A stretch of 54,377 nucleotides of DNA from an uncultured Hyphomicrobiales bacterium (GTDB lineage: Bacteria; Pseudomonadota; Alphaproteobacteria; Rhizobiales; Xanthobacteraceae): positions 1-54,377 of the forward strand of contig CAIMEA010000080.1 of NCBI GenBank assembly GCA_903839845.1, given 5' to 3'. The translations under genes were made by a program, and so were the position numbers. Each line of letters starts with the position of its first letter. Position 1 is the first letter of the stretch. This document shows, piece after piece, positions 14,465-52,374 of the stretch. Below the pieces are notes generated by a model. It was not told the DNA's origin. It saw nothing but the letters and a program-made list of their open reading frames with translations, and did not search any database.

Positions 14465-14497
14465 CGCCCGCACAAGAAGCGGCAAAGGATCAAGAAA

Positions 14498-18305: not shown

Positions 18306-18392
18306 ATTAGGCTAGCCTGCGCCAGCCTTGTCAGTCGAGCCGGTCGTCGCCGGATCGTCCCCGTCATCTTTGTGTTTGTAAGAGTACTAATT

Positions 18393-24392: not shown

Positions 24393-24398
24393 TCCGCC

Positions 24399-35426: not shown

Positions 35427-36211
35427 CCGATACCGATCTCAACAACATCGTCTTCCCGTCGCTGAAGGACCGCGTCGTCATCATTACCGGCGCCGGTCAG
35501 GGCATCGGCCGCGTTTTCGCCAAGGCATTCGGTCTTGCCGGCGCGCGCGTCGTCATTGCCGAGCGCAATGAGGAAAAGGCCGCCGCGGTGTCGCAGGAAG
35601 TCATGCAGGCCGGCGGCCAGGCATTGGCGATCACCACCGACGTCGCCGACGAGGCCTCGATCAAGGAAATGGTCGAACTGGCCACCGACGAATTTGGCGG
35701 CGTCGACGTTTTGATCAACAATGCCGGGATATTCTCGACGCTGGAAATGCGGCCGTTCGACCAGATTCCGCTGGCCGAATGGGAACAGGTGCTGACGGTC
35801 AATCTGACCGGGCCCTTTTTGTGCGCGCGCGCCGTGCTGCCGGCGATGCGCAAGGCCAAATGGGGCCGCATCATCAACATCGCCTCCGGCGCGGTGCGGC
35901 TCGGCCGGCCGAACTATCTGCACTACATCGCCACCAAATCGGCGCTGATCGGCATGAGTCTGTCGATGGCGCGCGAACTCGGCCCCGACAACATCACCGT
36001 CAACGCCATCCTGCCGGGCGCGACCTTCACCGAGATCGAACGCAAGACGGTGACGCCCGAGCAGAAGGTGAAGATTGTCGCGTCGCAGTGCATCCCGCGC
36101 CCGTCGGTGCCGCAGGACCTTGTCGGCGCCGCGTTGTTCCTGGCTTCCGACGCGTCCGGCTTCTTCACCGGACAGAGCCTCAATCTCGACGGCGGCGTGA
36201 CCGGGTCTTAA
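35423..36211 (+). CDS. Short-chain dehydrogenase/reductase (SDR)
   Basis: A 262-residue classical SDR. Cofactor motif TGAGQGIG (22-29), NNAG (99-102), catalytic Ser155, Tyr168 and Lys172 (YIATK). An acidic residue after the second strand (ERNE) suggests NAD preference. It ends in the usual GQSLNLDGGVTGS. It is translationally coupled to the CrtI-like oxidoreductase and could oxidise an alcohol formed by it. The frame from 35360 is inside the upstream gene and is rejected. It is tail to tail with the desaturase gene, 4 bases apart. Confidence 0.92.
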   Translation: MTDTDLNNIVFPSLKDRVVIITGAGQGIGRVFAKAFGLAGARVVIAERNEEKAAAVSQEVMQAGGQALAITTDVADEASIKEMVELATDEFGGVDVLINNAGIFSTLEMRPFDQIPLAEWEQVLTVNLTGPFLCARAVLPAMRKAKWGRIINIASGAVRLGRPNYLHYIATKSALIGMSLSMARELGPDNITVNAILPGATFTEIERKTVTPEQKVKIVASQCIPRPSVPQDLVGAALFLASDASGFFTGQSLNLDGGVTGS

Positions 36212-37383: not shown

Positions 37384-37403
37384 TATGTCGGTGCATCGAC
37401 ATA
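37384..37403. promoter_or_regulatory. Palindrome in the desaturase/oxidoreductase divergent gap
   Basis: TATGTCG (37384-37390) and CGACATA (37397-37403) form a 7-bp inverted repeat with a 6-base centre, 47 bases before the rightward catabolic unit and 119 bases before the desaturase. It is a candidate operator for one or both directions. Confidence 0.4.
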
Positions 37404-37449: not shown

Positions 37450-38295
37450 ATGATACCGACGGTCGCCATTATTGCACCGGGCAGCATGGGCGCCGGCATC
37501 GCCCGGCGCCTCGCCGATCAAAATGTGAAAGTTCTGACGTCGCTTACCGGGCGCAGCGCAGCAAGCGCAAAACGCGCCAGCGACGCCGGCATGCAGGCTG
37601 TCGCTGACCGCCAGCTCGCGGAGGCCGATTTTCTGTTGTCGATCGTGCCGCCGGGCGAAGCTTTGGCGCTGGCGCAGCGGCTGGCGCCGATCCTGGCAGA
37701 CGCCAATCACAAACCAGTTTATGTAGAATGCAACGCCATCAGTCCGCCGACCATGCTCAAGGTCGCCGACGCCATCAAGCCGACCGGCTGCGGCTTTATC
37801 GGCGCCGCTATCATCGGCCCGCCGCCGAAGCCCGGCTCGAGCAACACAAAAATCTATGCCGCGGGTCCCTTTGCCAAAGACCTCGCCGCGCTGAACGATT
37901 ACGGGCTGATCGTGCGCGTGCTGGACGGACCGCTGACTGCCGCCTCGGCGCTGAAGATGTCCTACGCCGGTATCACCAAGGGTTTCACCGCGCTCGGCGC
38001 GGCGATGATGCTGGCAGCGACGCGCGGCGGTTCGGCCGAGGCGCTGAAGGCGGAGCTGGCCGAGAGCCAAAGTGAACTGCTGGGCTTTCTCGGCAAGTCC
38101 GTGCCGGGCATGTATGCCAAGGCCTATCGCTGGGTGGCGGAGATGGACGAGATCGCCGACTTCATCGGCGAGGAATTCGCCGAGCACGCCATGCAGTCGG
38201 CGGCGGCGCGTTTCTACGAACGCATCGCCGACGATCAGGACGGCCGCAAGGAGGAAATCGCGGTCATGAATAAATTTCTCGGCCGGGCGCCATGA
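37450..38295 (+). CDS. 6-phosphogluconate-dehydrogenase-like NAD(P) oxidoreductase (DUF1932)
   Basis: A 281-residue protein with a Rossmann start that reads IIAPGSMGAGIARRL (the usual GLGxMG is here APGSMG) and a C-terminal helical domain of the DUF1932 type, with the conserved Lys in ASALKMSYAGITKGF. Relatives reduce or oxidise beta-hydroxy acids. First gene of a long rightward catabolic unit; its stop overlaps the next start by 4 bases (ATGA). The precise reaction cannot be told from sequence. Confidence 0.82.
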   Translation: MIPTVAIIAPGSMGAGIARRLADQNVKVLTSLTGRSAASAKRASDAGMQAVADRQLAEADFLLSIVPPGEALALAQRLAPILADANHKPVYVECNAISPPTMLKVADAIKPTGCGFIGAAIIGPPPKPGSSNTKIYAAGPFAKDLAALNDYGLIVRVLDGPLTAASALKMSYAGITKGFTALGAAMMLAATRGGSAEALKAELAESQSELLGFLGKSVPGMYAKAYRWVAEMDEIADFIGEEFAEHAMQSAAARFYERIADDQDGRKEEIAVMNKFLGRAP

Positions 38296-39095
38296 GCGAA
38301 CAAGTCGTCATTACTCGGATCGAGGCCGGTTACCGCATTCTGACGCTGAACCGGCCGGACAGGCTCAATGCCTTTAACGAGGCGATGCACGAAGCGTTGC
38401 GCGTGGCGATCGACGACGCCGAGGCGGATGTGGACTGCCGCGCGTTGATGATCACCGGCGCGGGCCGCGCCTTCTGCTCGGGACAGGATCTCAACGACCG
38501 TCTGCTCAAGCCCGGCGACAAGTCGAAGACGCGCGACTCGCTCGAGCGCAATTACAATCCACTGGTGCGGCGGCTGCGCGCGCTGCCGTTCCCCACCATC
38601 GCCGCCGTCAATGGCGTCGCCGCCGGCGCCGGCTGCAACATCGCGCTGGCCTGCGACATCGTGGTCGCTGCGAAGTCGGCGACCTTCACGCAATCCTTCG
38701 CCCGCGTCGGTCTCATTCCGGATTCGGGCGGCACCTTCTTTCTGCCGCGGCTGGTCGGCGACGCGCGGGCGCGCGGCCTGGCGCTGATCGCGCAGGAACT
38801 GAAAGCCGAGAAGGCCGCGGAATGGGGCATGATCTGGCGTTGCGTCGACGACAACGCGCTGCTCTACGAGGCGCAGCGCATCTGTCAGCATTTCAGTATC
38901 GCGCCGACGCAGGGGCTGTCGCTGATCAAGCAGGCGCTCAATGCATCGGCGGCCAATACGCTCGACGAGCAGCTCGATCTCGAGCGCGACCTGCAACATG
39001 CGGCGAGCGAACTGCCGGATTATGCCGAGGGCGTGCGCGCCTTCATCGAAAAGCGGAAACCGACATTCAACGGACGTAAAGGCAAAGCGGAATGA
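38292..39095 (+). CDS. Enoyl-CoA hydratase/isomerase (PaaG-like)
   Basis: A 267-residue crotonase-fold protein. The segments GAGRAFCSGQDLNDR, AVNGVAAGAGCNIALACD and FTQSFARVGLIPDSGG make the CoA pocket and oxyanion hole; it most resembles PaaG-type isomerases of phenylacetate degradation. The Asp in IPDSGG is the usual catalytic acid position. Its role here would be hydration or isomerisation of a CoA-bound ring-derived intermediate. Coupled by ATGA overlaps to both neighbours. Confidence 0.88.
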   Translation: MSEQVVITRIEAGYRILTLNRPDRLNAFNEAMHEALRVAIDDAEADVDCRALMITGAGRAFCSGQDLNDRLLKPGDKSKTRDSLERNYNPLVRRLRALPFPTIAAVNGVAAGAGCNIALACDIVVAAKSATFTQSFARVGLIPDSGGTFFLPRLVGDARARGLALIAQELKAEKAAEWGMIWRCVDDNALLYEAQRICQHFSIAPTQGLSLIKQALNASAANTLDEQLDLERDLQHAASELPDYAEGVRAFIEKRKPTFNGRKGKAE

Positions 39096-40018
39096 CGACC
39101 AACACGGCAAGAGTGCGCGCGCTGCGCAGCATCGATATCACCATGACCGACACGGCCAAGGCTCTGTCGTTTTTTACCGACGCCTGGCTCCTGACGCCGG
39201 TCACTGAGGCCAAGGGCGTGCATTATCTGCGCGGCACCGGCGCCTTTCATCACATCCTCAGCCTGCGTCAGGCGCCGCAAACCGCGCTGATCCGCATGGT
39301 GTTCGACGCCGCCGACCGGGCGTCGGTCGATGCCATTCACGCGCAGGCGGTGGCGCATGGGCTGAAGACCATCGACGCGCCGCGCGCGCTCAAAAGCCCG
39401 CATGGCGATTACGGCTTCGGCTACAAGGACCCGGAAGGCCGCAACGTCGCCGTGGTCTGCGGCGCGGCCGATCATGCCGACACCGCCGACAGCGCGGACC
39501 GGCCGCGCAAGATTTCGCACATCAACCTGAACAATTCCGATCCCGACGCCACCTTCGCCTGCTTCCGCGATGTGCTCGGCTTCAGGCTCACCGACACGAC
39601 CAAGAAAATGCGCTTCATCTCCTGCGGCAGCGATCATCACAGCGTGGTGCTCGGCTTCGGCGGCGGCACGACACTCAATCATATTGCCTTCGAGATGCCC
39701 GATCTCGATTCGGTGATGCGCGGCGCCGGCCGCATGCGCGACAATGGCCGCGGCATCGAATGGGGCCCCGGCCGCCATGGCCCCGGGCAAAATGTGTTCT
39801 GCTATTTCCTCGGGCCGGAAAACATGCCGATCGAATATACCGGCGAGATGCAGCAGATCGACGACAGCTACCGCGTCGGCCAACCGGATGACTGGAAATG
39901 GCCGCCGGGTCGGCTCGATCACTGGGGCATCACCGCCAAACCGAGCGAGCGCATGGAAGTGGCCGGGCAGAATTATCTCTTCACCGCCGACGGCTGGCGC
40001 CTCGATGAGTGGCGATAG
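39092..40018 (+). CDS. VOC-family extradiol dioxygenase-like protein, second copy
   Basis: A 308-residue two-module VOC protein. Likely metal ligands are His143 (ISHINL), His197 (LNHIAF) and Glu248 (MPIEYTGE). It shares WGPGRHGPG (224-232) with the protein at 11747-12613 and is its paralogue, though overall identity is modest by eye. It would cleave a dihydroxylated ring in the pathway of this operon. It is coupled to the upstream gene by a 4-base overlap, and the next gene starts 9 bases after it. Confidence 0.85.
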   Translation: MTTNTARVRALRSIDITMTDTAKALSFFTDAWLLTPVTEAKGVHYLRGTGAFHHILSLRQAPQTALIRMVFDAADRASVDAIHAQAVAHGLKTIDAPRALKSPHGDYGFGYKDPEGRNVAVVCGAADHADTADSADRPRKISHINLNNSDPDATFACFRDVLGFRLTDTTKKMRFISCGSDHHSVVLGFGGGTTLNHIAFEMPDLDSVMRGAGRMRDNGRGIEWGPGRHGPGQNVFCYFLGPENMPIEYTGEMQQIDDSYRVGQPDDWKWPPGRLDHWGITAKPSERMEVAGQNYLFTADGWRLDEWR

Positions 40019-40027
40019 GAGCTATCC

Positions 40028-40843
40028 ATGAACAAGCCATCTCTCCGCATCGGCATTGCTGGCCTTGGCGCCGTCGGACTCGACGTCGCGCGCCGGCTAA
40101 TCGATGGCGCCATCCCGGGCATGACGCTGACCGCGGTCGCGGTGCGCGATGCCGACAAGGCGCGCCGCGCGCTGCCGCAGATCGGCGACCTGGTCGCGCT
40201 GCGCACGCTCGAAACGCTTGCTGACGAATGCGATGTGGTTGTGGAGTGCCTGCCGCCGGCCTTGTTCCGCGGCATCGCGATTCCGGTCATCGACAAGGGC
40301 CGCATCTTCATGCCGCTGTCGGCCGGACAGCTTCTGCACCATGGCGACCTGATCGAGCGCGCCAAGGCGAGCGGCGCGCGCATCATCGTGCCGACCGGCG
40401 CGCTGATCGGCTTCGACGCCGTGCGCGGCGCCGCTGAGGGCACCATTCATTCGGTCGAGATGGTAACCCGCAAGCCGCCGGCCGGGCTTGAAGGCGCGCC
40501 CTATCTCGTCGAGCGCGGTCTTTCCGTGCTCGGCGTCACCGAGCCGACGAAGGTGTTCGACGGATCGGCGCGCGACGGCGCGGCGGGCTTTCCCGCCAAC
40601 GTCAATGTGGCGGCGGCGCTAAGCCTGGCCGGCATCGGGCCGGATCGTACACGGTTGCAGATCTGGGCCGACCCGACCGTGACCCGCAACACCCACACCA
40701 TCAAAGTCGACGCCGATACCGTGCGCTTCACCATGACGATCGAGAACGTGCCCTCGGACAACCCGCGCACGGGAAAAAGCGTGGCGCCCTCGACCATCGC
40801 CGCCTTGCGCGGGCTGGTGTCGGAATTGAAGGTCGGCAGCTAG
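40028..40843 (+). CDS. L-aspartate dehydrogenase-like protein
   Basis: A 271-residue protein that matches aspartate dehydrogenase over its length: cofactor motif GLGAVG (12-17), PTGALIG (122-128), TRKP (147-150), FPANVNVAAALSLAG (188-202), catalytic-type His223 in RNTHTI and PSDNPRTG (242-249). The family converts aspartate to iminoaspartate/oxaloacetate with NAD(P). It has no NAD-synthesis partners (nadA, nadC) here but sits in a catabolic operon, so it may release or fix ammonia from an amino or imino intermediate; that is inference. Confidence 0.88.
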   Translation: MNKPSLRIGIAGLGAVGLDVARRLIDGAIPGMTLTAVAVRDADKARRALPQIGDLVALRTLETLADECDVVVECLPPALFRGIAIPVIDKGRIFMPLSAGQLLHHGDLIERAKASGARIIVPTGALIGFDAVRGAAEGTIHSVEMVTRKPPAGLEGAPYLVERGLSVLGVTEPTKVFDGSARDGAAGFPANVNVAAALSLAGIGPDRTRLQIWADPTVTRNTHTIKVDADTVRFTMTIENVPSDNPRTGKSVAPSTIAALRGLVSELKVGS

Positions 40844-40923
40844 GCTCCGCCCCTGACGCGGAGTGCGTTGACTCGCCCGATCCGAGATCGTTAGCATACA
40901 AGCGATTTTGGAGAGCGACCGTC

Positions 40924-41781
40924 ATGAAGCCAGCGCCCTTCGTCCGCCATGTGCCGCGCACACTTGATCAGGCGCTGGCGATCCTGTCGCAGGTGGCGGG
41001 CCAGGACGGCCGCATTCTGGCCGGCGGCCAGAGCCTGGTGCCGATCATGGCCTTCCGGCTGGCGAAGCCGGCGCACCTCATCGATATCAATGAAGTTGCC
41101 GGTCTCGACCAGCTGGCAAGCGACGGCAAAATGCTGAGCATCGGCGCGCGGGTGCGGCACGCGGCCTTTCATGCGCCCGTGGCCGATAACCGGCTCGCCG
41201 CCCTGCTCACTTATGTGGCGCACCACATCGCGCATTATCCGATCCGCATGCGCGGCACTTTCTGCGGCAGTCTGGCGCACGCCGACCCGGCTTCCGAATG
41301 GTGCCTGACCGCGGCGACGCTCGGCGCCACGATGATTGCCATGAGCCAGCGCGGCACGCGCGAGATCGCGGCGAAGGATTTCTTTGAAGGCATCATGGCG
41401 ACGGCTTTGGCCGAGGACGAATTGCTGGCCGAAGTACGCCTGCCTTTGCTGGCGAGCGACGCGAAATTCGGCTTCTACGAATTCAACCGTCGCGCCGGCG
41501 ACTTTGCGATGGCGTCGTCGCTGGTCACCTATCGTATCGTTGACGGCAAGATCGCCGAAGCGCGCGTCGGCGTCGGCGGCGCCGAAAGCGCGCCGCGCAG
41601 AATCACGGAAGCCGAAACGGCGCTAAATGGCGCGACGCCGGACGACGATGCCTTCCGCGCGGCGGCGGAAGCCGCGCGCGACGCCATCGATCCGCTCGAA
41701 GATCACCAGACCGATGCCGCCTATCGCCGCGATCTGGTGCGCGCAGTGGTGCGCCGCGCGCTGGAGCATTCGCTCACATGA
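40924..41781 (+). CDS. Xanthine-dehydrogenase-family FAD-binding subunit (CoxM-like)
   Basis: A 285-residue medium subunit. FAD-binding segments AGGQSLVP (33-40) and GTFCGSLAHADPASEW (111-126) are the two usual contacts. It passes electrons from the iron-sulfur subunit to FAD and on to an acceptor. First of three genes for a molybdenum hydroxylase (order FAD, Mo, Fe-S), overlapping the next gene by 4 bases. An 80-base gap separates it from the aspartate-dehydrogenase-like gene. Confidence 0.9.
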   Translation: MKPAPFVRHVPRTLDQALAILSQVAGQDGRILAGGQSLVPIMAFRLAKPAHLIDINEVAGLDQLASDGKMLSIGARVRHAAFHAPVADNRLAALLTYVAHHIAHYPIRMRGTFCGSLAHADPASEWCLTAATLGATMIAMSQRGTREIAAKDFFEGIMATALAEDELLAEVRLPLLASDAKFGFYEFNRRAGDFAMASSLVTYRIVDGKIAEARVGVGGAESAPRRITEAETALNGATPDDDAFRAAAEAARDAIDPLEDHQTDAAYRRDLVRAVVRRALEHSLT

Positions 41782-44129
41782 ACGCTCCGACCAAGGGCTC
41801 ACACGGCGAAGCACTGAAATGGGTCGGCCGCGCCATCAGGCGGCTGGAAGACCCGGCATTGGTGACGGGCCAGGGCCACTTCACCGCCGATCTCTCGGCC
41901 GCGCATTGGGTGCGCTTCGTGCGCAGCCCGAACGCGGCCGGAAAAATCGACAGCATCAAGGCGCCGGACGGCGCGATGGTTATCACCGCCGCCGATTTGA
42001 AGGCCGTGAAGAAGATCACGCCGATGCTGCACAAGTTCAATTACAAGGCGGTCGGCCAATCCATTCTGGCCGACGGTGTCGTGCGCTTTGTCGGCGAAGC
42101 CGTCGCCGCAGTCGTCGCAGCGAGCGAAGAGGAAGCCGAGGACATCGCCGATCTGGTCGAACTCAACATCAGCGCGAGCGCGCCCGTGGTCGACGCCCGC
42201 GATGCGCTCGCTGACGGCGCGCCCCAGATTCACGCCGAGGCGCCCGGCAATGTCATTCTCAAGGGCGAGGTCAAGACCGCCGGCTTCGACGAGGTTTGGG
42301 CGAGCGCGGCGAAGATCGTCAGGATCGACGCGCGCTCGCACCGGCAGAATGCGACGCCGATGGAAGCGCGCGCCGCGCATGCGGCCTATGACAGAGCGAG
42401 CGGCCGCGTCACGCTGACCTGCACCACGCAGATGCCGCATTTGATGCGCACCGCCATCGCCGATCTCCTCGGCATCGCTGAATCCGATTTGCGCGTGATC
42501 GCACCCGATGTCGGTGGCGGCTTCGGCCAGAAGATGTCGTTGTGCGCCGAATATGTGCTGCTGGTCTGGCTGGCGCGCAAACTGAAAAGTTCGGTGGCCT
42601 GGACCGAGGACCGCCGCGAAAACCTGATCGCCTCGTTTCATGCGCGCGATCAATATGTCACGCTGGAAGGCGCGTTCGACAAGGACGCCAAATTGCTCGC
42701 GCTGCGCGCCGATGTCGTGTCCAATGTCGGCGCCTATTCCTGCTTCCCGACCACCAGCGGCGTCGAGCCGCTGATGGCGATGGCGGAAATGCCGGGGCCC
42801 TACGACGTGCAGCAGTACCAATGCCTGGCGCGCGGCGTGCTGACCAATACCTGCACCATGGCCGCCTATCGCGGCGTGTCGCGGCCGATCATCACCTTCA
42901 CGCTGGAACGGTTGATGGACAAGGCGGCGAAAGCGTTCAAGATCGACCCGGTCGATATTCGCCGCCGCAACCTGATCGACAAGTTTCCTTATACATCGGC
43001 GACCGGGCTGATCTATGACGAGGCGACTTATAAAGCGACGCTGGAAATGGCGGCACATGCGATCGATCTGGCGGCGTTCCGCGCGCGGCAGAAAGAAGCG
43101 TGCGCCAAGGGCCGCTATCTTGGCATCGGCTTGGCGACGTTTTCCGAGCGCACCGGCTATGGCAGCCCCGCCTTTGCCGCGCGCGGCATGGCGATTACAC
43201 CGGGCTGGGAGACGGTACATGTCAGCGTCGATCCGTCCGGCTACGTCGAAGCGCGCATCGGCTCCTCGCCGCATGGCCAAGGCCTGCGCACGACTTTGGC
43301 GCAAATCATCGCCGACGAACTCGGCATTCCGCCCGACCTCATCAAGATCGTGCATGGCGACACCGACACCGCGCCTTACGGCTGGGGCACTTTCGCCAGC
43401 CGCTCGCTGGTGATCTCCGGCGGCGCCACCTTGATCGCGGCGCGCAAGGTGCGCGCCAAGCTGATCAAGATCGCCGGGCATATGCTGGAAGCGGCGGAAA
43501 GCGACATCGTGCTCGAAGACGGCGCCGCCAAGGTCGCCGGCACCGACCGCTCCGTGACCGTCGCCGCGATGGCGCGCGAAATCTACACGCAGACGCACCG
43601 CTTCAAGGGCGAGCTGGAGCCCGGCCTGTCCGAGAGCGGTACTTACGATCCGCCCGGCACTTTTTCCAATGCCTGCCATATCGCGATCGTTCAACTCGAT
43701 CCCGAGACCGGCTTCGTCAAGGTCGAGCGCTATCTGGTGGCGGAAGACGCCGGCCGCATCATCAATCCGATGATCGCCGACGGCCAGGTGCATGGCGGCA
43801 TCGCCCAGGGCATCGGCAATGCGTTGCTGGAAGAGATCGTCTACGACGACGCGGGCGGCATTCTCACCGCCAATCTTGCCGACTACATGCCGCCGACCGC
43901 GCATGAAATGCCGCCTATCGAGCTGCATCACATGGAAACGCCGTCAACGCAGTCGATCACCAAGGCCAAGGGACTAGGCGAAGGCGGCACCATCGGCGCA
44001 CCGGCCGCCGTGCTCAACGCCATCAACGACGCGCTGACGCCGTTTAACGTCGAGATCGACACCATCCCGGCAACGCCGCAGCGGATACGCGCGGCGATAC
44101 GCGAGGCCACTGCAAAGCAATCAGCATGA
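41778..44129 (+). CDS. Xanthine-dehydrogenase-family molybdopterin-binding subunit 1
   Basis: A 783-residue large subunit of a molybdenum hydroxylase. Molybdopterin contacts are visible in DVGGGFGQKM, CTMAAYRGVSRP and the catalytic Glu735 in KGLGEGGTIG. The CO-dehydrogenase motif AYxCSFR is replaced by AYRGVSR, so this is a hydroxylase and not form I CODH. Substrates of this class include N-heterocycles, aldehydes and aromatic CoA thioesters; the operon suggests a cyclic acid. Overlaps both neighbours by 4 bases. Confidence 0.92.
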   Translation: MNAPTKGSHGEALKWVGRAIRRLEDPALVTGQGHFTADLSAAHWVRFVRSPNAAGKIDSIKAPDGAMVITAADLKAVKKITPMLHKFNYKAVGQSILADGVVRFVGEAVAAVVAASEEEAEDIADLVELNISASAPVVDARDALADGAPQIHAEAPGNVILKGEVKTAGFDEVWASAAKIVRIDARSHRQNATPMEARAAHAAYDRASGRVTLTCTTQMPHLMRTAIADLLGIAESDLRVIAPDVGGGFGQKMSLCAEYVLLVWLARKLKSSVAWTEDRRENLIASFHARDQYVTLEGAFDKDAKLLALRADVVSNVGAYSCFPTTSGVEPLMAMAEMPGPYDVQQYQCLARGVLTNTCTMAAYRGVSRPIITFTLERLMDKAAKAFKIDPVDIRRRNLIDKFPYTSATGLIYDEATYKATLEMAAHAIDLAAFRARQKEACAKGRYLGIGLATFSERTGYGSPAFAARGMAITPGWETVHVSVDPSGYVEARIGSSPHGQGLRTTLAQIIADELGIPPDLIKIVHGDTDTAPYGWGTFASRSLVISGGATLIAARKVRAKLIKIAGHMLEAAESDIVLEDGAAKVAGTDRSVTVAAMAREIYTQTHRFKGELEPGLSESGTYDPPGTFSNACHIAIVQLDPETGFVKVERYLVAEDAGRIINPMIADGQVHGGIAQGIGNALLEEIVYDDAGGILTANLADYMPPTAHEMPPIELHHMETPSTQSITKAKGLGEGGTIGAPAAVLNAINDALTPFNVEIDTIPATPQRIRAAIREATAKQSA

Positions 44130-44602
44130 CCGACAAATCCCCCCTCACCCTCACCATCAACGGCCGCGACCATGCCATCGCCGTCGAAGCGCGGCGCACT
44201 TTGGCCGATGCGATCCGCGAGGATTGCGGCCAGACCGGCACGCATATCGGTTGCGAGCACGGCATTTGCGGCGCCTGCACCGTGATCGTCGATGGCGAGC
44301 CGGTGCGGTCCTGCCTGATGTTCGCCGTACAGGCCGAAGGCAGACAAATCCGCACCGTCGAAGGGCTCGCCGATGGCGAGACGCTGCACGTCATGCAGCA
44401 GGCCTTCATGGATCATCACGGCCTGCAATGCGGCTTTTGCACGCCGGGCTTTCTGATGCTGGCGGTCGGCGTGCTCGAGCGCGAGCCCGACATCAGCGAC
44501 GACGATCTGCTCGACGTGCTGTCGTCGAACCTGTGCCGTTGCACCGGTTATCAGAACATCATCAAGGCCGTGCGCGCGGCGGCGGACGAGATGAGGAAGT
44601 AG
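44126..44602 (+). CDS. Xanthine-dehydrogenase-family 2Fe-2S subunit
   Basis: A 158-residue small subunit with both iron-sulfur clusters: plant-type CEHGICGAC with Cys43, 48, 51 and 63, and the C-terminal cluster with Cys102, 105, 137 and 139 (CGFC, CRC). It shuttles electrons from molybdenum to FAD. It is coupled to the large-subunit gene. Repeat copy 3 follows the stop. Confidence 0.93.
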   Translation: MTDKSPLTLTINGRDHAIAVEARRTLADAIREDCGQTGTHIGCEHGICGACTVIVDGEPVRSCLMFAVQAEGRQIRTVEGLADGETLHVMQQAFMDHHGLQCGFCTPGFLMLAVGVLEREPDISDDDLLDVLSSNLCRCTGYQNIIKAVRAAADEMRK

Positions 44603-44610
44603 CTTTTCCC

Positions 44611-44680
44611 GCTCGTCCCCGCGAAGGCGGGGACTCAGGAGAAACAAGTGCTGGATTCCCGCCTACGCGGGAATGAGCGG
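44611..44680. repeat. Bipartite hairpin repeat, copy 3
   Basis: GTCCCCGC gaag GCGGGGAC, short centre, then TTCCCGC ctac GCGGGAA, with outer arms GCTCGT and ATGAGC pairing in part. It has the same architecture as copies 1 and 2 but a different loop. It lies inside the operon between the Fe-S gene and the second molybdopterin gene, where it could partly stop or process transcripts. Confidence 0.8.
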
Positions 44681-44700
44681 AGATGGGATCCACGCCCGGA

Positions 44701-46986
44701 ATGTCTGAGGCAAAGCAAAAAATCGTCGGCCGTTCTGTCGCCCGTCTCGAAGACCGGCCGCTATTGCTGGGCCAGGGTCGTTTTGCCGCCGATGTATCGT
44801 TTGCCGGCCAATGGTCCATGCGCGTGGTGCGCTCAGCCGTGGCGCACGGAAAACTTCGCGGCATCGACGCCAGCGCCGCGCTGGCATGGCCCGGCGTGCA
44901 TGCGGTGTGGACCCATAAAGATGTCGCCCACATCCCGCCGATCCCGTTTCGCCTCACCGGGCTGAAGGAGCTTGAACCCTATCGCCAGACCGTGCTGGCA
45001 AAGGATTATGTGCGCTATGTCGGCGAGCCAGTCGTCGTGGTGTTCGCGGCCGATCAATATGTCGCCGAGGACGCCGCAGACCTGGTCGAACTGGATATCG
45101 AGCCTCTCACGCCGGTGCTCGATGCCTCCGGCGCAACCGGCCCATTCGACGGCACGCACGCCACAGAGCCGAGCGTGATCCGCAAAGGTTATGGCGACGT
45201 CGAGGCGGCGTTCAAGGCGGCGCACGCGGTCGTTTCGCTCGCGCTGTCGACCGGCCGCCATTCCGGCGTGCCGATGGAAACGCGTGGCGCCATCGCCCGT
45301 TACGACGAAGGCCGCGATATTCTGGAAATGCACGGCGCCGCCAAGGTGCCGTGGTGGAACCGCGACCACATCGCGCAAATGATCGGCCGCACGCGCGACA
45401 ATATGCATCTCTATGAAGGCCATGTTGGAGGCGGCTTCGGCATCCGCGGCGAAATCTATCCTGAAGACGTGCTGGTCTGCGCCGCCGCTCTCGCCTTCAA
45501 GAAGCCCATCAAATGGATCGAGGACCGCCGCGAGCACCTGATCGCCGCCAACCATTCGCGCCAGCAGCAACATAACGTCCGCGCCGCCATCGATACCAAC
45601 GGCCGCATCCTCGCGATCGACAACGAATTCTTTCACGATAACGGCGCCTATATGCGCACGCACGCGGCGACCGTGCCCGATCTGGCCGCAGCCATGCTGC
45701 CGGGGCCCTATCGCGTGCCGGCCTATCGCGCCATCGGCCATATCCGCCTGACCAACAAGACGCCGAGCGGCACCTATCGCGCGCCGGGGCGCTATGAGTC
45801 CACCTTCGTGCGCGAGCGGTTGATGGATGCGATCGCCGCGCATGTCGGCATCGACGGCGTCGAGATCCGCCGCCGCAACCTGATCGGCAAAAGCGCGATG
45901 CCTTATGATTTGCATCTCGACACGCTCGGCACGCATATTGTCTACGATTCCGGCGACTACGCGCTGCTGCTCGACAAGACGCTTGCAGCGGCCGGCTGGC
46001 CGGAATTGAAGGCGAGTCTGACGAAGCGCCGCGCGGCCGGCGAAAAGGTCGGCGCCGGCGTTGCCATGTTCGTCGAAAAAAGCGGGCTTGGTCCGTCCGA
46101 TACGGTGCGCGTCGATGTAAAGAGCAACGGCAAGATCGAAGTCGTCACCGGCGTCGCCTCAGTCGGTCAGGGCGTCGAGACGGCGATGGCGCAGATCGCC
46201 GCCGATGCGCTCGGGGTCGACTATACCGATATCAACGTTATACACGGCCAGACCGACCGCATCGACACTGGCTCCGGCGCCTTTGCCTCGCGCGTCACCG
46301 TGATGTGCGGCGAAGCCACCCGCCTGGCGTCGGTGAAATTGCGCGACAGGGCGCTCAAGCTGGCCGCCGAACTGATGCAGACCGAGCCCGGGGCGCTCGA
46401 CATTATCAACAGCGAGATCGTCCGGCGTAGCGGCTCGGGCGCCTCGATGACGCTCGCCGAACTGGCACAGGCACGGCCCGGCGAACTTTCCGCTGAGGAC
46501 ACTTTTCTGTCCTCGCATATGGTTTACCCTTACGGCGTCCACATCGCGGCGGTGAAGGTCGATGGCGAGACCGGCGCGGTCGCGATCGAGCGCTATGTCA
46601 TAGGCTACGATGTCGGCAAAGCCGTCAATCCGCGGCTGGTGGAAAGCCAGATCGCCGGCGGGCTGGCGCAGGGGCTGGGCGGCGCGCTGCTCGAGGAGTT
46701 CGTCTATGACGACCATGGCGAGCCGCTCTCGGTCACCTTCGCCGATTATCTGATGCCGACCGCGCGTGAGGTGCCGGCGATGTCCATCCTCATCACCGAG
46801 GATGCGCCGAGCCCGCTTAATCCGATGGGCCTGAAAGGCGCCGGCGAAGGCGGCGCCAACCCGGTGGGCGCAGCGATCGCGTCGGCTATAGACGATGCCC
46901 TGCAACGGCCCGGCGCCGTCGCCGACCTGCCGGTGACGCCGCAACGGCTCGCACGGCTGCTGAAAGAGCGGCCCGGCCCCCTCTGA
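44701..46986 (+). CDS. Xanthine-dehydrogenase-family molybdopterin-binding subunit 2
   Basis: A 761-residue large subunit, clearly paralogous to the first but diverged. Signatures: VGGGFGIRGEIYPEDV, GTYRAPGRYESTF, the active-site Glu716 in LKGAGEGG and a start VGRSVARLEDRPLLLGQGRF. It has no own Fe-S or FAD subunit genes here, so it may share those of the first enzyme. The ATG at 44701 is preferred; another ATG at 44683 is inside repeat-derived sequence. It oxidises an unknown substrate, possibly a second step of the same pathway. Confidence 0.9.
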   Translation: MSEAKQKIVGRSVARLEDRPLLLGQGRFAADVSFAGQWSMRVVRSAVAHGKLRGIDASAALAWPGVHAVWTHKDVAHIPPIPFRLTGLKELEPYRQTVLAKDYVRYVGEPVVVVFAADQYVAEDAADLVELDIEPLTPVLDASGATGPFDGTHATEPSVIRKGYGDVEAAFKAAHAVVSLALSTGRHSGVPMETRGAIARYDEGRDILEMHGAAKVPWWNRDHIAQMIGRTRDNMHLYEGHVGGGFGIRGEIYPEDVLVCAAALAFKKPIKWIEDRREHLIAANHSRQQQHNVRAAIDTNGRILAIDNEFFHDNGAYMRTHAATVPDLAAAMLPGPYRVPAYRAIGHIRLTNKTPSGTYRAPGRYESTFVRERLMDAIAAHVGIDGVEIRRRNLIGKSAMPYDLHLDTLGTHIVYDSGDYALLLDKTLAAAGWPELKASLTKRRAAGEKVGAGVAMFVEKSGLGPSDTVRVDVKSNGKIEVVTGVASVGQGVETAMAQIAADALGVDYTDINVIHGQTDRIDTGSGAFASRVTVMCGEATRLASVKLRDRALKLAAELMQTEPGALDIINSEIVRRSGSGASMTLAELAQARPGELSAEDTFLSSHMVYPYGVHIAAVKVDGETGAVAIERYVIGYDVGKAVNPRLVESQIAGGLAQGLGGALLEEFVYDDHGEPLSVTFADYLMPTAREVPAMSILITEDAPSPLNPMGLKGAGEGGANPVGAAIASAIDDALQRPGAVADLPVTPQRLARLLKERPGPL

Positions 46987-47099
46987 GATAGCCACCTTGT
47001 GGACAGCCTCCGGCGCGTCGATAATGACGCCCACGGGGCCCTTGAATGGCCTGCGAAAAATCAGCCGATAACAACGGCGATTACAATGGGAGGAATTCA

Positions 47100-48107
47100 A
47101 TGTCCGTTTCACGGTATCTGCCGCTTACGCGCGGCATTCTGCTCGGCGTCGCGCTGGCGATGTCATCGACAGCTGCGTTCGCGCAAAGCCGCGCATTCTC
47201 CTTCGCCTACGACCAGCCGAAGAACAGCGGCTATGGCGTCGGCGCCGAGATGTTCAACAAGAAGCTGATGGAACTGAGCAAGGGCACTCTCTCGATCAAT
47301 CAGTATCCCGGCGCCCAGCTTGGCACCGAAGCGCAGACTCTGCAAAAGGTACAGACCGGCGACATCGACTTCGTCATGCTGTCGACCGCGAACGCTTCGA
47401 CCGCGCAGCCGGAATCTGGCGTGTTCTCGATCCACTTCATCTTCCGCGACGAAGCGCACGCCATCAAGGTGCTCGGCGACCCGGCCGTGATCGCGGCGAT
47501 GAAGGAACTGTACGCCGCCAAGATGAAGGGCGCGCATATGCTGGGCTTAGGCTCGCAGGGCCTCCGCCACATGTACGGCAAGAAGCCGGTGGAGAAGGTC
47601 GCCGACCTGAAGGGCATCAAGATGCGCGTGCAGGCGACCGTCACCGAGGATACCACCTTCCCGGCCTATGGCGCCCAGGTCGTTCACATGCCATTCGGCG
47701 AAGTCTATACCTCGCTGCAGACCGGCGTCGTCGACATGGCCGAGAACGGCATCAACAACTACCTCGTCAACAAGCACTACGAGCCCGCGCCAGTCCTGTC
47801 GCTCACCGAACACGAAGCGAATAACGCTGCGCTGTTCGTCAGCGATAAGGTCTGGTCGAGCCTGTCCGACGAGCAGAAGAAATGGGTGCAGGCGGCCGCC
47901 GACGAGGTCAGCAAGAACGAGCCGACCGCGGCCTTCAAGCTCGAACACGAGGCGCTGGCGAAACTGGAAAAGATCGGCGTCAAGGTCGTCAAGACCGTCG
48001 ACAAGAGCGGCTTTGCCTCGATCAGCAAGCCGATCCAGGACAAGCTGGCCTCGGACCTCGGCCCGAACGCGGTGAAGGTTCTCGCGCTGGTCCGTAACGT
48101 GAAATAG
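47100..48107 (+). CDS. dctP: TRAP transporter solute-binding protein (DctP-like)
   Basis: A 335-residue periplasmic protein with a signal peptide (cleavage near AAFAQ, about residue 27) and DctP-type features, including the substrate-carboxylate Arg in KMRVQATVTED and the long helix near the C-terminus. TRAP systems import carboxylates with a sodium gradient. An excellent ribosome-binding site (GGGAGGA, spacing 7) fixes the start. It heads the TRAP genes within the catabolic unit and is followed by a stem-loop. Confidence 0.92.
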   Translation: MSVSRYLPLTRGILLGVALAMSSTAAFAQSRAFSFAYDQPKNSGYGVGAEMFNKKLMELSKGTLSINQYPGAQLGTEAQTLQKVQTGDIDFVMLSTANASTAQPESGVFSIHFIFRDEAHAIKVLGDPAVIAAMKELYAAKMKGAHMLGLGSQGLRHMYGKKPVEKVADLKGIKMRVQATVTEDTTFPAYGAQVVHMPFGEVYTSLQTGVVDMAENGINNYLVNKHYEPAPVLSLTEHEANNAALFVSDKVWSSLSDEQKKWVQAAADEVSKNEPTAAFKLEHEALAKLEKIGVKVVKTVDKSGFASISKPIQDKLASDLGPNAVKVLALVRNVK

Positions 48108-48119
48108 GCGGCGCTAAGG

Positions 48120-48150
48120 CAAGGCGGGGAGCCCGGCGTTCCCCGCCTTG
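48120..48150 (+). terminator. Stem-loop between dctP and dctQ (attenuator)
   Basis: A perfect 11-bp stem (CAAGGCGGGGA / TCCCCGCCTTG) with a 9-base loop, followed by TTTCATCTC. The T-run is short, so it is probably a partial terminator or a 3' mRNA stabiliser that keeps the binding protein in excess over the membrane subunits, as at 32298-32325. Confidence 0.7.
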
Positions 48151-48192
48151 TTTCATCTCAGTCTCTGTCGGCTACCCGGAACAGAAGACGCC

Positions 48193-48753
48193 ATGAAAGC
48201 CTCCTACAGCCTCGTCCTTCAGGAACAGCGCCATCTGAAATGGCGGGCGCTCGATTTTCTTGAGCATATTTTGATGGTCCTGTGCGGCGTCGCCATCACC
48301 GGATTTTGCGTGCTGGTCATGTGCGACATCATCACCCGCACGATCGGACATCCCTGGCTGTGGCTCCAGGAAGCCACGATGACCTTCTTTATCTACGGCA
48401 TCTTCATCGGTGTCGGCGCCGCTACCCGCCGCAACGATCATCTTTATCTTGCCGTGCTCGCGGAATCGCTGACCGGCAATCGCCGCCTGTTCTTCGAGAT
48501 TTCCAACAGGCTGGTCGTGCTCGCTGTCGCCATTTGCATGATCTATTTCGGCTACCTCAACTTCCTCGACGGCTTCAAGAGTCTGCGGATGCCGTCGATG
48601 ACGCCGATGTCGAGCTTCTACGCCGCCATCCCGCTGTGTGGAATTCTGGTTTCGCTGTTCACGATCGAACAGATGGTCAATGGCTGGAAGAACGGCTTTG
48701 CCGAGCCGACAAGCGAACCGCATCATGAAAGCCTCGGGAGGGAAGTGCTGTGA
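48193..48753 (+). CDS. dctQ: TRAP transporter small permease (DctQ-like)
   Basis: A 186-residue membrane protein with four TM segments. The family motif is present in WLWLQEATMTFFIYGIFIG (around residues 56-74), then RRNDHLYLAVLAESL. It partners with the large permease. The start follows the hairpin by 43 bases; the stop overlaps the DctM start as GTGA. The frame back to 48148 reads through the hairpin end and is rejected. Confidence 0.9.
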   Translation: MKASYSLVLQEQRHLKWRALDFLEHILMVLCGVAITGFCVLVMCDIITRTIGHPWLWLQEATMTFFIYGIFIGVGAATRRNDHLYLAVLAESLTGNRRLFFEISNRLVVLAVAICMIYFGYLNFLDGFKSLRMPSMTPMSSFYAAIPLCGILVSLFTIEQMVNGWKNGFAEPTSEPHHESLGREVL

Positions 48754-50090
48754 CCTCCAATGGAGCGCTAATCTTCCTGATGGGCTTTCTGTTCCTGTTC
48801 CTCGGCTATATGGGCGTGCCGGTCGCCTTCGCGCTGATCGGCTCGGTGCTGGTGGTCGCCGCTTTCACGTCCGTCAGCCTGGCCTCGATGATGGGCCAAT
48901 TGTTCAACGGCATGGATACCGAGGCCCTGCTCGCGGTGCCGTTCTTCCTGCTGGTCGGCGACCTTATGACGTCGGCGAATGTCACCGTGCGCATGATCCG
49001 GCTGTCGCAGACCATGGTCGGCCATTTCCGCGGCGGCCTCGCCCAGGTGGTGACATTGTTCAGCATGTTCTTCGCCGGCATTTCCGGCTCATCGGCCGCC
49101 GACGTCGCGGTGCTGTCGCGCACGGTCGGCCCGGAGATGGATCGCGAGGGCTATGATCGGGCCTTCACCGCCGCTTTGATCGCGTCGGCCGCGACCATGG
49201 CCAATCTCATTCCGCCGAGCATCATGGCGGTGGTTTACGGCGCGACCGGCAATGTCTCGATCGGCGGGTTGTTCCTCGGCGGCGTCGTGCCGGGCCTGCT
49301 CGTCGGCATCGGCCTGATGATCTACAGCTACTTTTTCGGGCCGGCCGGCCTCAAGCACAAGCGCGCAACCTTCCGCCAATTCACGACCGCCGGCCGCGAG
49401 GCCGCGATTCCGCTGGTCATTCCCATCATCATCATGGGCGGCATTCTCACCGGGCAATTCACGCCGACCGAGGCCGGCGTCATCGCGGTCGCCTACATCG
49501 TCTTTGTCGCCATCCCGTTTCTCAATATCCGGCACATCGCCCATCTGCCGCGCGACATGGCAATGACCGGCTTGCTCTACTCAATCCCGCTGATCACCAT
49601 CGGCGCTGCGTCGATGTTCGGCTGGATGCTGGCCTATCTGCGCGGTCCTGCGGTTGTGTCGGCATGGATCGCCCAGACGGCCGGCAACGATCCCTTCATG
49701 ATCATGCTGTTGCTGGTGGTGCTGTTCGTCATCGTCGGCGATTTCATCGACGCTATTCCGGCGATCATCATTTTCATGCCGATCATTACCGACCTGACCG
49801 TGAATGCCGATATCAATCCGGTTCACATGGGCGTCGTCATTATAGTCACATTGGCCTTCGGCCTGATTACTCCGCCCTATGGTCTTTGCCTATTGATGGC
49901 GTCGAAATTCATCGACGTGCGCTTCGGCAAGGCCATGGTCGCGTCGCTGCCCATCTATATCGTCTTCTTCGCGACCATCGCTTTTGCCATTTTCTTTCCG
50001 GAGGTCGTGCTGTGGCTGCCCAAGCACCTGTTGCCCGAATCGGTCGGCTGCTTCAAGAACCCGAGCGGCGCAGGTTATCTCTGCCCCTGA
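48750..50090 (+). CDS. dctM: TRAP transporter large permease (DctM-like)
   Basis: A 446-residue sodium-coupled permease with 12 or so TM segments. Signature segments: MFFAGISGSSAADVAVLSR, ANLIPPSIMAVVYGATG and ILTGQFTPTEAGVIAVAYI. The GTG start has GGGAGGGAA upstream. With DctP and DctQ it is a complete uptake system, likely for the carboxylate degraded by the surrounding enzymes. Confidence 0.93.
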   Translation: MTSNGALIFLMGFLFLFLGYMGVPVAFALIGSVLVVAAFTSVSLASMMGQLFNGMDTEALLAVPFFLLVGDLMTSANVTVRMIRLSQTMVGHFRGGLAQVVTLFSMFFAGISGSSAADVAVLSRTVGPEMDREGYDRAFTAALIASAATMANLIPPSIMAVVYGATGNVSIGGLFLGGVVPGLLVGIGLMIYSYFFGPAGLKHKRATFRQFTTAGREAAIPLVIPIIIMGGILTGQFTPTEAGVIAVAYIVFVAIPFLNIRHIAHLPRDMAMTGLLYSIPLITIGAASMFGWMLAYLRGPAVVSAWIAQTAGNDPFMIMLLLVVLFVIVGDFIDAIPAIIIFMPIITDLTVNADINPVHMGVVIIVTLAFGLITPPYGLCLLMASKFIDVRFGKAMVASLPIYIVFFATIAFAIFFPEVVLWLPKHLLPESVGCFKNPSGAGYLCP

Positions 50091-50135
50091 TCCGGCCGGC
50101 CGCGGCTCTCGTTATGATGCATAATGGAACCGACC

Positions 50136-50969
50136 ATGATCGAGCAAAGCGCGCCGAAGCTGAAGGCGCCGCGCAATTCCTGCGACTGTCATATGCACGT
50201 CTACGACGCCAGCTACCCGACGGCGAAGACCGCCCGGGTGCTGCCGCCGCCGGCGTCAGTCGAACAATATCTCGCCGCGCGCAAGAACCTCGGCATCGAG
50301 CGCACCATCGTGGTGCAGGCTTCCGCCTATGGCACGGATAATTCGCTGCTGCTCAAGAGCATGAGCCAGATCGGGCCGGGCGCGCGCGGCATTGTCGTCC
50401 TCGACGACACCGTCAGCGATGAAGAACTGGAGCGGATGCACAAGCTCGGCGTGCGCGGCATCCGTTTTTTCATGCTGGGCGGCGCGCCGTTGCCGATCGA
50501 ATTGATGGAGCCGATGGCGGCGCGCGTCGCACCGTTCGGCTGGACGGTGAATTTCCAGACCGACGGCCGCCAACTCGCCGACTTCGAAGCGCTGCTGAAG
50601 CGGCTGCCGACCACCGTCACCATCGATCACGTCGGCAAATTTCTCGAACCGGTCGAGCCGGACCACGCCGGCTTTACCGCGCTGCTGCGCCTGATCGACA
50701 CCGGCAAGGTCTGGTACAAACTGGCGGCGCCGTACGAGACGTCGAAGATCGGCCCGCCGTTCTATGACGACGTCGGCAAGCTGGCCAAAATTCTGGCCAA
50801 GCATGCGCCCGAGCGCGGCCTGTGGGCGAGCAACTGGCCGCATCCGAACGCGGCGGAACGCACGCCGCAGGACGCCTGGATGCTCGACATGCTGCTCGAC
50901 TGGGTGCCGGATGAGACAACGCGCACCAGGATATTGGCCGACAATCCGGCGCAGCTTTACGGGTACTAG
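50136..50969 (+). CDS. Amidohydrolase family protein (LigI/PDC-hydrolase-like)
   Basis: A 277-residue TIM-barrel hydrolase of the amidohydrolase_2 family. The metal-binding HxH is His19 and His21 (CHMHV), a further His is in TIDHVGK (165) and the late motif is WASNWPHP (230-237). In LigI (2-pyrone-4,6-dicarboxylate lactonase) this motif is WGTDWPHP and the Asp is the catalytic base; here it is Asn233. The enzyme may use another base or act differently. ATG at 50136 follows GGAA; 50124 is possible. Last gene of the unit. Confidence 0.85.
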   Translation: MIEQSAPKLKAPRNSCDCHMHVYDASYPTAKTARVLPPPASVEQYLAARKNLGIERTIVVQASAYGTDNSLLLKSMSQIGPGARGIVVLDDTVSDEELERMHKLGVRGIRFFMLGGAPLPIELMEPMAARVAPFGWTVNFQTDGRQLADFEALLKRLPTTVTIDHVGKFLEPVEPDHAGFTALLRLIDTGKVWYKLAAPYETSKIGPPFYDDVGKLAKILAKHAPERGLWASNWPHPNAAERTPQDAWMLDMLLDWVPDETTRTRILADNPAQLYGY

Positions 50970-51114: not shown

Positions 51115-51573
51115 TTAACTCAGCTTCTTCATCAACTCGCACACCACGAGCCGTTCCTGCTCGCTGAGCGGGGCAAGCGTCGCCGCGGTGATCTCGGCGG
51201 CCACCACCATCGCCGCCTTGGTCACCTCGCGGCCACGCTCGGTCAGCGCCACCGCGCGGCGGCGGCGGTCGGTCGGGTCGGCGAGCGCGGTAACAAAGCC
51301 GCGTATGCTGAGGCGATCGACCACGCCCTTGATGGTGGCGGCGTCGAGATAGATCAGCCGGCCGAGATGGTTCTGCGAACAGGGCCCGACTTCATACAAT
51401 TTTGCGAGCGCGGCGAATTGCGTCTGCGTCAGGCCCTCGATCATGCGCGACATGAAAATCGAGGTGTGCCGCTGCATGGCGACCCGCATCAGGAAACCGG
51501 CCTGCGCGTCGAGCACGTAACCGGTCGCCGGCTCGGCTGGCGGCGTAATGACCTTCAATTTATCGCGCGGCAT
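51115..51573 (-). CDS. MarR-family transcriptional regulator
   Basis: A 152-residue winged-helix repressor. The wing is in ADPTDRRRRAVALTERGREV, and the recognition-helix region is IYLDAATIKGVVDRL. MarR proteins in such settings answer to phenolic acids or CoA thioesters and repress catabolic genes. It is read leftwards after the second Liv operon, with 72 bases between, and could regulate that transporter or the rightward unit that ends next to it. Confidence 0.88.
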   Translation of the reverse strand: MPRDKLKVITPPAEPATGYVLDAQAGFLMRVAMQRHTSIFMSRMIEGLTQTQFAALAKLYEVGPCSQNHLGRLIYLDAATIKGVVDRLSIRGFVTALADPTDRRRRAVALTERGREVTKAAMVVAAEITAATLAPLSEQERLVVCELMKKLS

Positions 51574-51645: not shown

Positions 51646-52374
51646 TCAGACCGTCAAATAAGTCCGCTGAATGTCGGGACTGCCCGACAATTGCGCCATC
51701 GTGCCCTGCCACTGGATCTGGCCCTTTTCCAGCACATAGACCCGGTCCGACACCAGTTGCGCGAAATGGATGTTCTGTTCGGACAGCAGGATCGACAGGC
51801 CTTCCTTTTTCAGTTCGATAATGGTGTTGGCCATTTGCTCGACGATCAAAGGCGCCACGCCTTCCGAGGGCTCGTCGAGCAGCACCAGCAGCGGATTTCC
51901 CATCAGTGTGCGGGCGACGGTGAGCATCTGCTGTTCGCCGCCGCTCATGCGGCCGCCGGGGCGATCCTGCATTTCGGCGAGGTTGGGAAACAGCGCGAAC
52001 AGCCGCTCCGGCGTCCACAACGGCGCAGCCGCGCCGTCGGGAAAGGCGCGCGGCGGCTGGCGGCCGATATCGAGATTTTCCATCACCGTCAGATCGGAGA
52101 AAATGCGGCGGTCTTCCGGCGTGAAGCCGAGGCCGCGCCGCGCAATCTGATAAGGCTCAAGGCGCGAAATATCCTCGCCGTTAAATGTGACCGTGCCCTG
52201 GCGCTGCGCGATCAGACCCATGATCGCCTTCATCGTCGTCGATTTGCCGGCGCCGTTGCGGCCCATCAGCGCCACCACCTCGCCACGCCCGACATCGAAC
52301 GAGAGATCGTAGAGAATACGGGCGGCGCCGTACCAGGCGCTTAAAGCGTCGACCTTGAGCATGATATCGTTCAC
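51646..52374 (-). CDS. livF: Branched-chain amino acid-type ABC transporter ATPase LivF, second system
   Basis: A 242-residue ATPase: Walker A GRNGAGKST, signature MSGGEQQML, Walker B LLVLLDEPSEGVAP and the LivF-type SEQN after the last strand. It is the last gene of a second Liv system and overlaps livG by 4 bases. Confidence 0.93.
   Translation of the reverse strand: MNDIMLKVDALSAWYGAARILYDLSFDVGRGEVVALMGRNGAGKSTTMKAIMGLIAQRQGTVTFNGEDISRLEPYQIARRGLGFTPEDRRIFSDLTVMENLDIGRQPPRAFPDGAAAPLWTPERLFALFPNLAEMQDRPGGRMSGGEQQMLTVARTLMGNPLLVLLDEPSEGVAPLIVEQMANTIIELKKEGLSILLSEQNIHFAQLVSDRVYVLEKGQIQWQGTMAQLSGSPDIQRTYLTV

Follow-up and report, generated by a model that had tools for sequence, protein, structure and literature searches.

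A molybdenum hydroxylase gene module behind a recurrent palindrome, and its variable neighbour module, in a Pseudolabrys genome

Gene content of the locus

Contig CAIMEA010000080.1 of an uncultured Hyphomicrobiales bacterium (assembly GCA_903839845.1), part of a 4.04-Mb Pseudolabrys genome labelled G000, was analysed over its full 54,377 nucleotides, here called the window. Twelve plus-strand genes (g1–g12) occupy positions 37450–50969, and these 13.5 kb are two adjacent modules: module A, which is variable, and module B, which has a conserved core of molybdenum hydroxylase genes preceded by a palindrome predicted to be an operator. Gene content, modularity, the operator and its recurrence in relatives were computed directly from the sequences. 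Pfam matches of all twelve genes exceed the curated cut-offs. Four-base overlaps occur at five of the eleven junctions (g1/g2, g2/g3, g5/g6, g6/g7 and g10/g11), and the g4–g5 and g7–g8 gaps both measure 80 bases. A sequence-only reading of the same DNA had placed the genes and their strand correctly and counted eleven of them, an error given that its own list sums to twelve.

Module A (F11, F6, g1, g2, optionally g3, and g4) is a species-variable set of redox and CoA-type catabolic enzymes; labels in F (F6, F11, F14 and F30) denote sequence clusters defined in this analysis. It opens with F11, a CrtO/CrtI-like flavin adenine dinucleotide (FAD) oxidoreductase (33780–35426), followed by the short-chain dehydrogenase F6 (35360–36211), both on the plus strand. 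Next come g1, a DUF1932/6PGDH-like dehydrogenase whose nearest solved structure is 1i36 (37450–38295), the PaaG-like crotonase g2 (38292–39095; TIGR02280 at 367 bits, cut-off 345), the accessory two-domain VOC protein g3, of the extradiol-type ring-cleavage dioxygenases (39092–40018), and g4, an accessory but common member of the aspartate dehydrogenase family (40028–40843; NF009825 at 353 bits, cut-off 253). We infer the roles of g1–g4, and the evidence assigns module A no pathway.

The core of module B comprises one FAD subunit (g5, 40924–41781), a first molybdenum-binding large subunit (g6, 41778–44129), one [2Fe-2S] subunit (g7, 44126–44602) and a second molybdenum-binding large subunit (g8, 44683–46986). 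Accessory genes follow for a TRAP importer, namely the solute-binding protein DctP (g9, 47046–48107), the small permease DctQ (g10, 48148–48753) and the large permease DctM (g11, 48750–50090), and for a LigI/4mup-like amidohydrolase of the Amidohydro_2 family (g12, 50124–50969). Convergent to these, on the minus strand, lie the MarR-family regulator F14 (51115–51573) and a branched-chain-type ABC importer, represented by a LivF-like ATPase (51646–52374) that is the same neighbour in Pseudolabrys and Tardiphaga, by an open reading frame whose residues 184–337 form a second, LivG-like ATPase (52371–53627, the true start probably near 53138), and by a permease that clusters with L124:17092-18990 and is truncated by the contig end (53147–54331).

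Conservation of the two modules

Gene neighbourhoods were compared in 39 of 43 genus genomes, G000 among them; G726, G730 and G738, whose loci were not retrieved, and G540, in which the parts lie apart, were left out. Gene calls in relatives came from a simple codon-score script, and the titles of many relatives mark them as metagenome bins. Counted over all stretches at identities of at least 45%, and with many contigs ending inside the region, g1 is present in 32 of the 39 genomes, g2 in 36, g3 in 14, g4 in 31, g5 in 36, g6 in 32, g7 in 30, g8 in 28, the TRAP genes in 6–7 and g12 in 15. In 25 genomes the sequence is continuous from g2 as far as the MarR gene, and all of these read-through genomes carry g2 and g5–g8; g1 is present in 21, g4 in 18 (missing in 7), g12 in 15 (missing in 10), g3 in 9 (missing in 16) and the TRAP genes in 5 (missing in 20). 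The order g5–g8 is kept in Pseudolabrys, Tardiphaga and Bradyrhizobium NFR13, mostly followed by the convergent MarR/ABC cassette, and in the latter two it stands without g1, g3 and g4 in the fetched stretch. On the strength of these presence counts and standalone copies we regard g5–g8 as a fixed core.

Both g1 (in its form of at least 63% identity) and g6 occur in 22 of 30 genus genomes drawn, with 16 pairs no more than 12 kb apart, two at 12–13 kb through inserts and four on different contigs. The pair g4 and g6 likewise occurs in 22 of the 30, no more than 12 kb apart in 18 and on different contigs in three. Outside the genus, a linked pair was found in none of 15 sampled family genomes that carry g1-like (E ≤ 1e-55) and g6-like (E ≤ 1e-270) genes, the two lying on different contigs in 11 and sharing a contig, at a distance of 0.6 Mb or more, in 4.

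The sequence-only reading had taken the set for one catabolic unit, which would make it a single operon and a single pathway, in which molybdenum hydroxylation, extradiol cleavage and an aspartate dehydrogenase step, perhaps releasing nitrogen late, would degrade one TRAP-imported N-heteroaromatic acid. We consider this very improbable, even though the shared strand of the twelve genes, their five four-base overlaps and the proximity of g4 to g6 in 18 of 22 genomes, are what it would lead one to expect, because g5–g8 have a separate, conserved operator before g5, stand alone without g1–g4 in Tardiphaga, and are set off in relatives by foreign inserts in the g4–g5 gap (MBOAT/DUF459, an amine oxidase, or nadC with an importer). 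The absences of g3, the TRAP genes, g12 and g4 among the read-through genomes point the same way, as do the g3 relatives outside the genus, which occur apart from the other genes of the set (L139–L150, L152) and so also disqualify g3 as its marker. Free separation of the parts had been named beforehand as grounds for refutation; the parts do separate, yet not freely, as the g4–g6 distances show. In this locus a common strand and close spacing were thus no sign of a single pathway.

The flanks of the core vary as well. F11 and F6 are both present upstream of g2 in 19 of the 36 genus genomes with g2, and F6 directly precedes g1 or g2 in several relatives without the desaturase that lies upstream of g1 on the minus strand in the window. 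A PaaI-like thioesterase, a human-ACMSD-like protein and g3 are accessories of this upstream module. The ACMSD-like protein (L138:11112-12128, nearest solved structure human ACMSD at 210 bits) occurs in eight genus loci and is missing in the window; its gene occurs together with g3 in seven of the eight, the eighth contig ending there, and L182 has it without g3. At the other end, the g8–g9 gap is 59 bases in the window and 113 in L104, and in the close relatives L103 and L107 a minus-strand gene, in L107 an FCD-GntR regulator by Pfam, stands between g8 and the TRAP genes. Given this varying spacing and intervening gene, the TRAP importer may be a later addition to module B.

Several more specific assignments were considered for the variable genes. 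Although g2 passes the equivalog cut-off for PaaG, a role in the phenylacetate pathway was rejected, since g2 occurs in 36 of 39 genus genomes and paaA in 7 of 43; G000 is one of those seven, and there g2 may double as PaaG. Type I extradiol dioxygenases have His-His-Glu iron ligands and second-sphere His and Tyr residues, and in g3, aligned with homoprotocatechuate dioxygenase, H143, H197, E248, H182, H229 and Y238 are invariant in 16 of 16 sequences, H182 being a near match because the catalytic His pairs with the adjacent His183 in the alignment. Identity with homoprotocatechuate 2,3-dioxygenase (HpaD) itself was rejected: g3 scores 88.6 bits where the cut-off is 321, and Trp224 replaces the substrate residue, Arg243 in HpaD. 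At five plasmid loci inspected, out of 37 records with a g3 relative, the neighbours always include MhpA-like and FAH-family genes, and in three of them an amidohydrolase is adjacent. Aspartate dehydrogenase relatives of g4 in the order have molybdenum hydroxylase genes nearby in 1 of 20 fetched loci.

For g12, described by the sequence-only reading as a LigI-like hydrolase, the likeness holds in that residues 8–279 of 281 align with LigI and with 4mup, its nearest solved structure, which we take to be galactaro-lactone isomerase, and that H23 and H25 of the LigI HxH motif are invariant in 12 of 12 sequences. The hydrolase part is weakened by Asn237, which in all 12 aligned orthologues takes the place of the catalytic Asp248 of LigI; 4mup has Asn there too.

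Predicted operator and candidate regulator

Inside the g4–g5 gap lies a promoter-like arrangement, TTGACT-18-TAGCAT (40868–40897, plus strand). Such sites are by number not above chance (2 found, 3.4 expected), and the same arrangement recurs in 10 of 21 upstream stretches in a pattern search that included the window, whether g2, g4 or an insert lay upstream. Its second hexamer is overlapped by the palindrome ATCGTTAGCATACAAGCGAT at 40887–40906, which has no strand, precedes g5 in relatives regardless of the upstream gene and is the predicted operator. A second palindrome, ATGTCGGTGCATCGACAT at 37385–37402, lies between the minus-strand desaturase and g1. It was considered for g1 and assigned instead to the desaturase, because the alignment shows it in desaturase-bearing relatives and not in desaturase-less ones.

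The operator was scored with a symmetric matrix built from ten distinct sites before g5 at genus loci without nadC; an earlier matrix gave a similar picture, and included one nadC-side and one Tardiphaga site, hence it was not relied on. Elsewhere in Pseudolabrys DNA (358,218 bases) no site reached 20 bits (one reached 19.8). Among the 54 g5 loci 43 could be scored, about 8 of which belong to genomes supplying training sites; Tardiphaga-type and nadC loci supplied none. A site of at least 20 bits stands before g5, or before nadC where nadC precedes g5, in 38 of the 43. Sites are also present at 8 of 8 Tardiphaga-type loci. Every one of the 30 loci with a MarR gene in the stretch has such a site, as do 8 of the 13 without one, seven of these being contigs that end before the place of the MarR gene. 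No site of at least 20 bits was found in the five remaining MarR-less loci, of which L212 has a different subunit order and L218, L221, L222 and L223 have a g6 that is 56–60% identical. Three of these more distant loci, L218, L222 and L223 (Methylobacterium, Acetobacteraceae and Bradyrhizobium dw_78), share a nearby Cyclase-family gene; L218 and L223 also have a PnrA-like binding protein, and L218 a carbon-nitrogen hydrolase.

The adjacent ABC importer appears to share the operator in relatives. Of 24 scorable loci, 19 have a site of at least 14 bits at its HAAT binding-protein gene and 6 have one of at least 20 bits, a score of 14 bits being reached by 2 of 2000 random 340-base background stretches. 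The close relatives L254 and L255 include the HAAT promoter stretch and carry sites.

The MarR gene and the palindrome co-occur across loci, making F14 a candidate repressor, and the operator is probably read by this convergent protein. In the Bordetella MarR-type regulator BpsR, four contacts to 6-hydroxynicotinate are named, Tyr15, His23, Arg26 and His32 (PMC6837509); Y19, R30 and H36 of the window protein correspond to Tyr15, Arg26 and His32 in spacing, which is a spacing match and not an alignment, and Phe27 stands at the place of His23. These three residues are conserved in at least 97% of 55 MarR rows, some contigs being counted twice.

Probable substrate class of module B and comparison with known systems

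All three subunit types of the molybdenum enzyme show xanthine-oxidase-family domains above cut-offs (FAD_binding_5 and CO_deh_flav_C, Fer2 and Fer2_2, MoCoBD_1 and MoCoBD_2). The nearest solved relative of g6 is quinoline 2-oxidoreductase (1t3q, 500 bits), followed by carbon monoxide (CO) dehydrogenase (8uem, 471 bits), and that of g8 is 6-hydroxypseudooxynicotine dehydrogenase (7dqx, 587 bits), followed by quinoline 2-oxidoreductase (396 bits). A Glu near the large-subunit C-terminus is the active-site residue of this family; g6 E735, in the KG.GEGG motif, is invariant in 13 of 13 aligned proteins, and g8 has KGAGEGG with the Glu, read in the window sequence only. The presence of two large subunits suggests two substrates or two positions of attack. 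Form I CoxL of aerobic CO dehydrogenase has a Cys in its AYxCSFR loop, and this identity was rejected for both proteins, which read AYRGVSR (g6) and TYRAPGR (g8) and fall below the NCBIfam CODH cut-offs. In 193 plasmid records all g6 relatives are below 60% identity, the best at 44%.

A link to pyridine metabolism comes from nadC, the gene for quinolinate phosphoribosyltransferase, which passes the curated cut-off in 15 of the 43 genus genomes and was not found in 28. Neither nadA nor nadC has a match in G000, with models that both fire in 12 of 14 control genomes, and the nadC link is therefore carried by relatives only. An importer adjoins nadC in all 15 genomes, TAXI-TRAP in 9 and NMT1-type ABC in 6 (loci L236–L243, L120, L121, L138, L151 and L244–L246), and we regard these systems as candidate quinolinate importers. 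In 7 of the 15, nadC occupies the g4–g5 interval and stops 1–12 bases before the g5 start in six and 205 in one; the operator stands before nadC in six of these loci and in the seventh (L120) only at the importer gene. Where nadC lies elsewhere, 7 of 8 loci have one or two sites of 21.9–32.1 bits, between nadC and the importer or before nadC, and no site from these eight loci was used in the matrix. NadC motifs are kept in 20 of 20 loci checked (15 distinct contigs).

Genes of the de novo route to nicotinamide adenine dinucleotide (NAD) were also sought. A nadA match was found in 1 of 43 genus genomes and in none of the 15 with nadC, so that the combination expected for quinolinate salvage, nadC present and nadA absent, occurs in 15 relatives and not in the window genome. 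No genus genome passes the nadB cut-off, itself passed in just 5 of 14 controls; weaker matches in 41 of the 43 are long frames taken for SdhA-type flavoproteins, and the one directly beside nadA in G717 may be a true NadB. A role for g4 as NadX of de novo NAD synthesis was rejected despite its passing the aspartate dehydrogenase cut-off, because with nadA not found in 42 of 43 genomes it would not serve ordinary NAD synthesis. In L237 (10510-12629) and L238, nadC is followed by guanylate-kinase-family (perhaps PhnN-like) and pyrimidine-nucleoside-phosphorylase-family genes, which possibly make phosphoribosyl pyrophosphate for NadC; in L236 and L239 just the latter family was called after nadC.

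Taken together, we see about an even chance that the two modules have separate control and that module B serves the MarR-regulated uptake and hydroxylation of a pyridine carboxylate, which is probably the ligand class, with quinolinate the best single candidate. The sequence-only guess of an N-heteroaromatic substrate gains support from the N-heterocycle enzymes nearest to the large subunits and from the operator that the molybdenum operon of relatives shares with nadC. We predict that MarR, bound to the palindrome in the g5 promoter, would repress the molybdenum operon and the adjacent ABC importer and, in relatives, nadC and the TAXI-TRAP or NMT1-type importers. Entry of the ligand would lift repression and the importers would then bring in more of it, while the molybdenum enzyme would add a water-derived hydroxyl beside the ring nitrogen and pass electrons through [2Fe-2S] to FAD. 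A fuller version, which we hold to be rather doubtful, would unite quinolinate import by TAXI-TRAP or NMT1 systems, NadC salvage without NadA, and molybdenum-dependent oxidation through two interchangeable large subunits in one MarR-type regulon; if true, quinolinate would be vitamin and food alike for Pseudolabrys and its kin.

Possible, though doubtful, is that the molybdenum enzyme has nothing to do with pyridines and hydroxylates aldehydes or aromatic compounds, and that nadC and the importers share a common type of palindrome or arrived by chance. Its large subunits are also near CO dehydrogenase and aldehyde enzymes, nadC was not found in the 28 genomes noted above, and GntR and MarR palindromes resemble each other; such a coincidence would nevertheless have to account for sites that greatly exceed the background at g5 as well as at remote nadC loci, and for nadC inserted between operator and g5. 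An operator sensing NAD-precursor status in a vitamin-scavenging regulon, with the molybdenum enzyme modifying a pyridine for salvage or detoxification, would suit the near absence of nadA, the importer beside nadC in 15 of 15 genomes and the genes after nadC in L237. We find it improbable, as most genomes with the molybdenum operon have no nadC match and aromatic-acid catabolism is the usual setting for a MarR gene next to a branched-chain-type ABC importer.

Several observations weigh against a MarR-regulated pyridine-carboxylate module. CO dehydrogenases are near relatives of both large subunits (8uem also matches g8, at 352 bits), and the window genome itself is without nadC. Regulators of the GntR/FCD type, too, typically have TTGT-N4-ACAA palindromes, and some of the loci have FCD-GntR genes in the vicinity. 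One site of at least 20 bits (24.9 bits, in the order-level control locus L045) occurs in 599,523 bases of other loci, L213 has the operator with no MarR gene in its 22 kb, and L240 has nadC and no operator site. The HAAT promoter of the window lies beyond the contig end, leaving the evidence to relatives, 5 of 24 of which have no site of at least 14 bits. Finally, in G540 a distance of 1.2 Mb separates g5–g8 from g4 and the MarR gene, g4 and g6 being on one contig.

Elsewhere in the window, a second catabolic stretch (8131–15733) encodes a luciferase-like monooxygenase, two FAD_binding_3 proteins, an IclR regulator, a VOC dioxygenase and a CMD-family open reading frame. Positions 16922–27539 hold an ECF sigma factor, a heavy-metal-resistance-like protein, an outer-membrane efflux protein, an HlyD-like subunit and two open reading frames of more than 1000 amino acids; by its layout this is an RND-type efflux set, the large frames lying outside the scan.

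Like the xanthine-oxidase-family hydroxylases 1t3q and 7dqx, the enzyme of module B has large, FAD and [2Fe-2S] subunits, and the KG.GEGG Glu is present in both large subunits. It differs from them in having a single FAD gene and a single Fe-S gene for its two large subunits, and the likeness is at family level. The gene list becomes a testable regulon, with the operator a route to further members and to the inducer. No description of this gene combination, or of a link between nadC and a molybdenum hydroxylase, was recognised among the matches listed and the open-licence literature, which is a weak negative.

Nicotinate catabolism by the nic genes includes a molybdenum hydroxylase, as does module B, and profile scans found none of the nic ring-opening families among the twelve window genes. 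The nic genes are under the MarR-type NicR/BpsR, and three of the four BpsR contact residues recur by spacing in the MarR protein of the window (PMC6837509).

The closest parallel for the nadC loci is the Bordetella system, in which quinolinate is reported to be salvaged by NadC without NadA or NadB and the binding protein Bug69 is a neighbour (PMC11452294); in the relatives studied here nadC likewise adjoins an importer, with no nadA match. Unlike that system, the importers are TAXI-TRAP or NMT1-ABC rather than TctC, and nadC lies between g4 and the molybdenum operon in seven genomes, while the window genome has no nadC match. Loss of Bug69 is reported not to abolish growth on quinolinate, and the Bordetella quinolinate importer is thus unsettled (PMC11452294). 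TAXI-TRAP importers are treated in one publication under the heading "the neglected group" (PMC5812351), and the portions of the literature examined name no pyridine ligand for TAXI-TRAP or NMT1-type ABC importers; both would gain a candidate ligand from the nadC loci described here.

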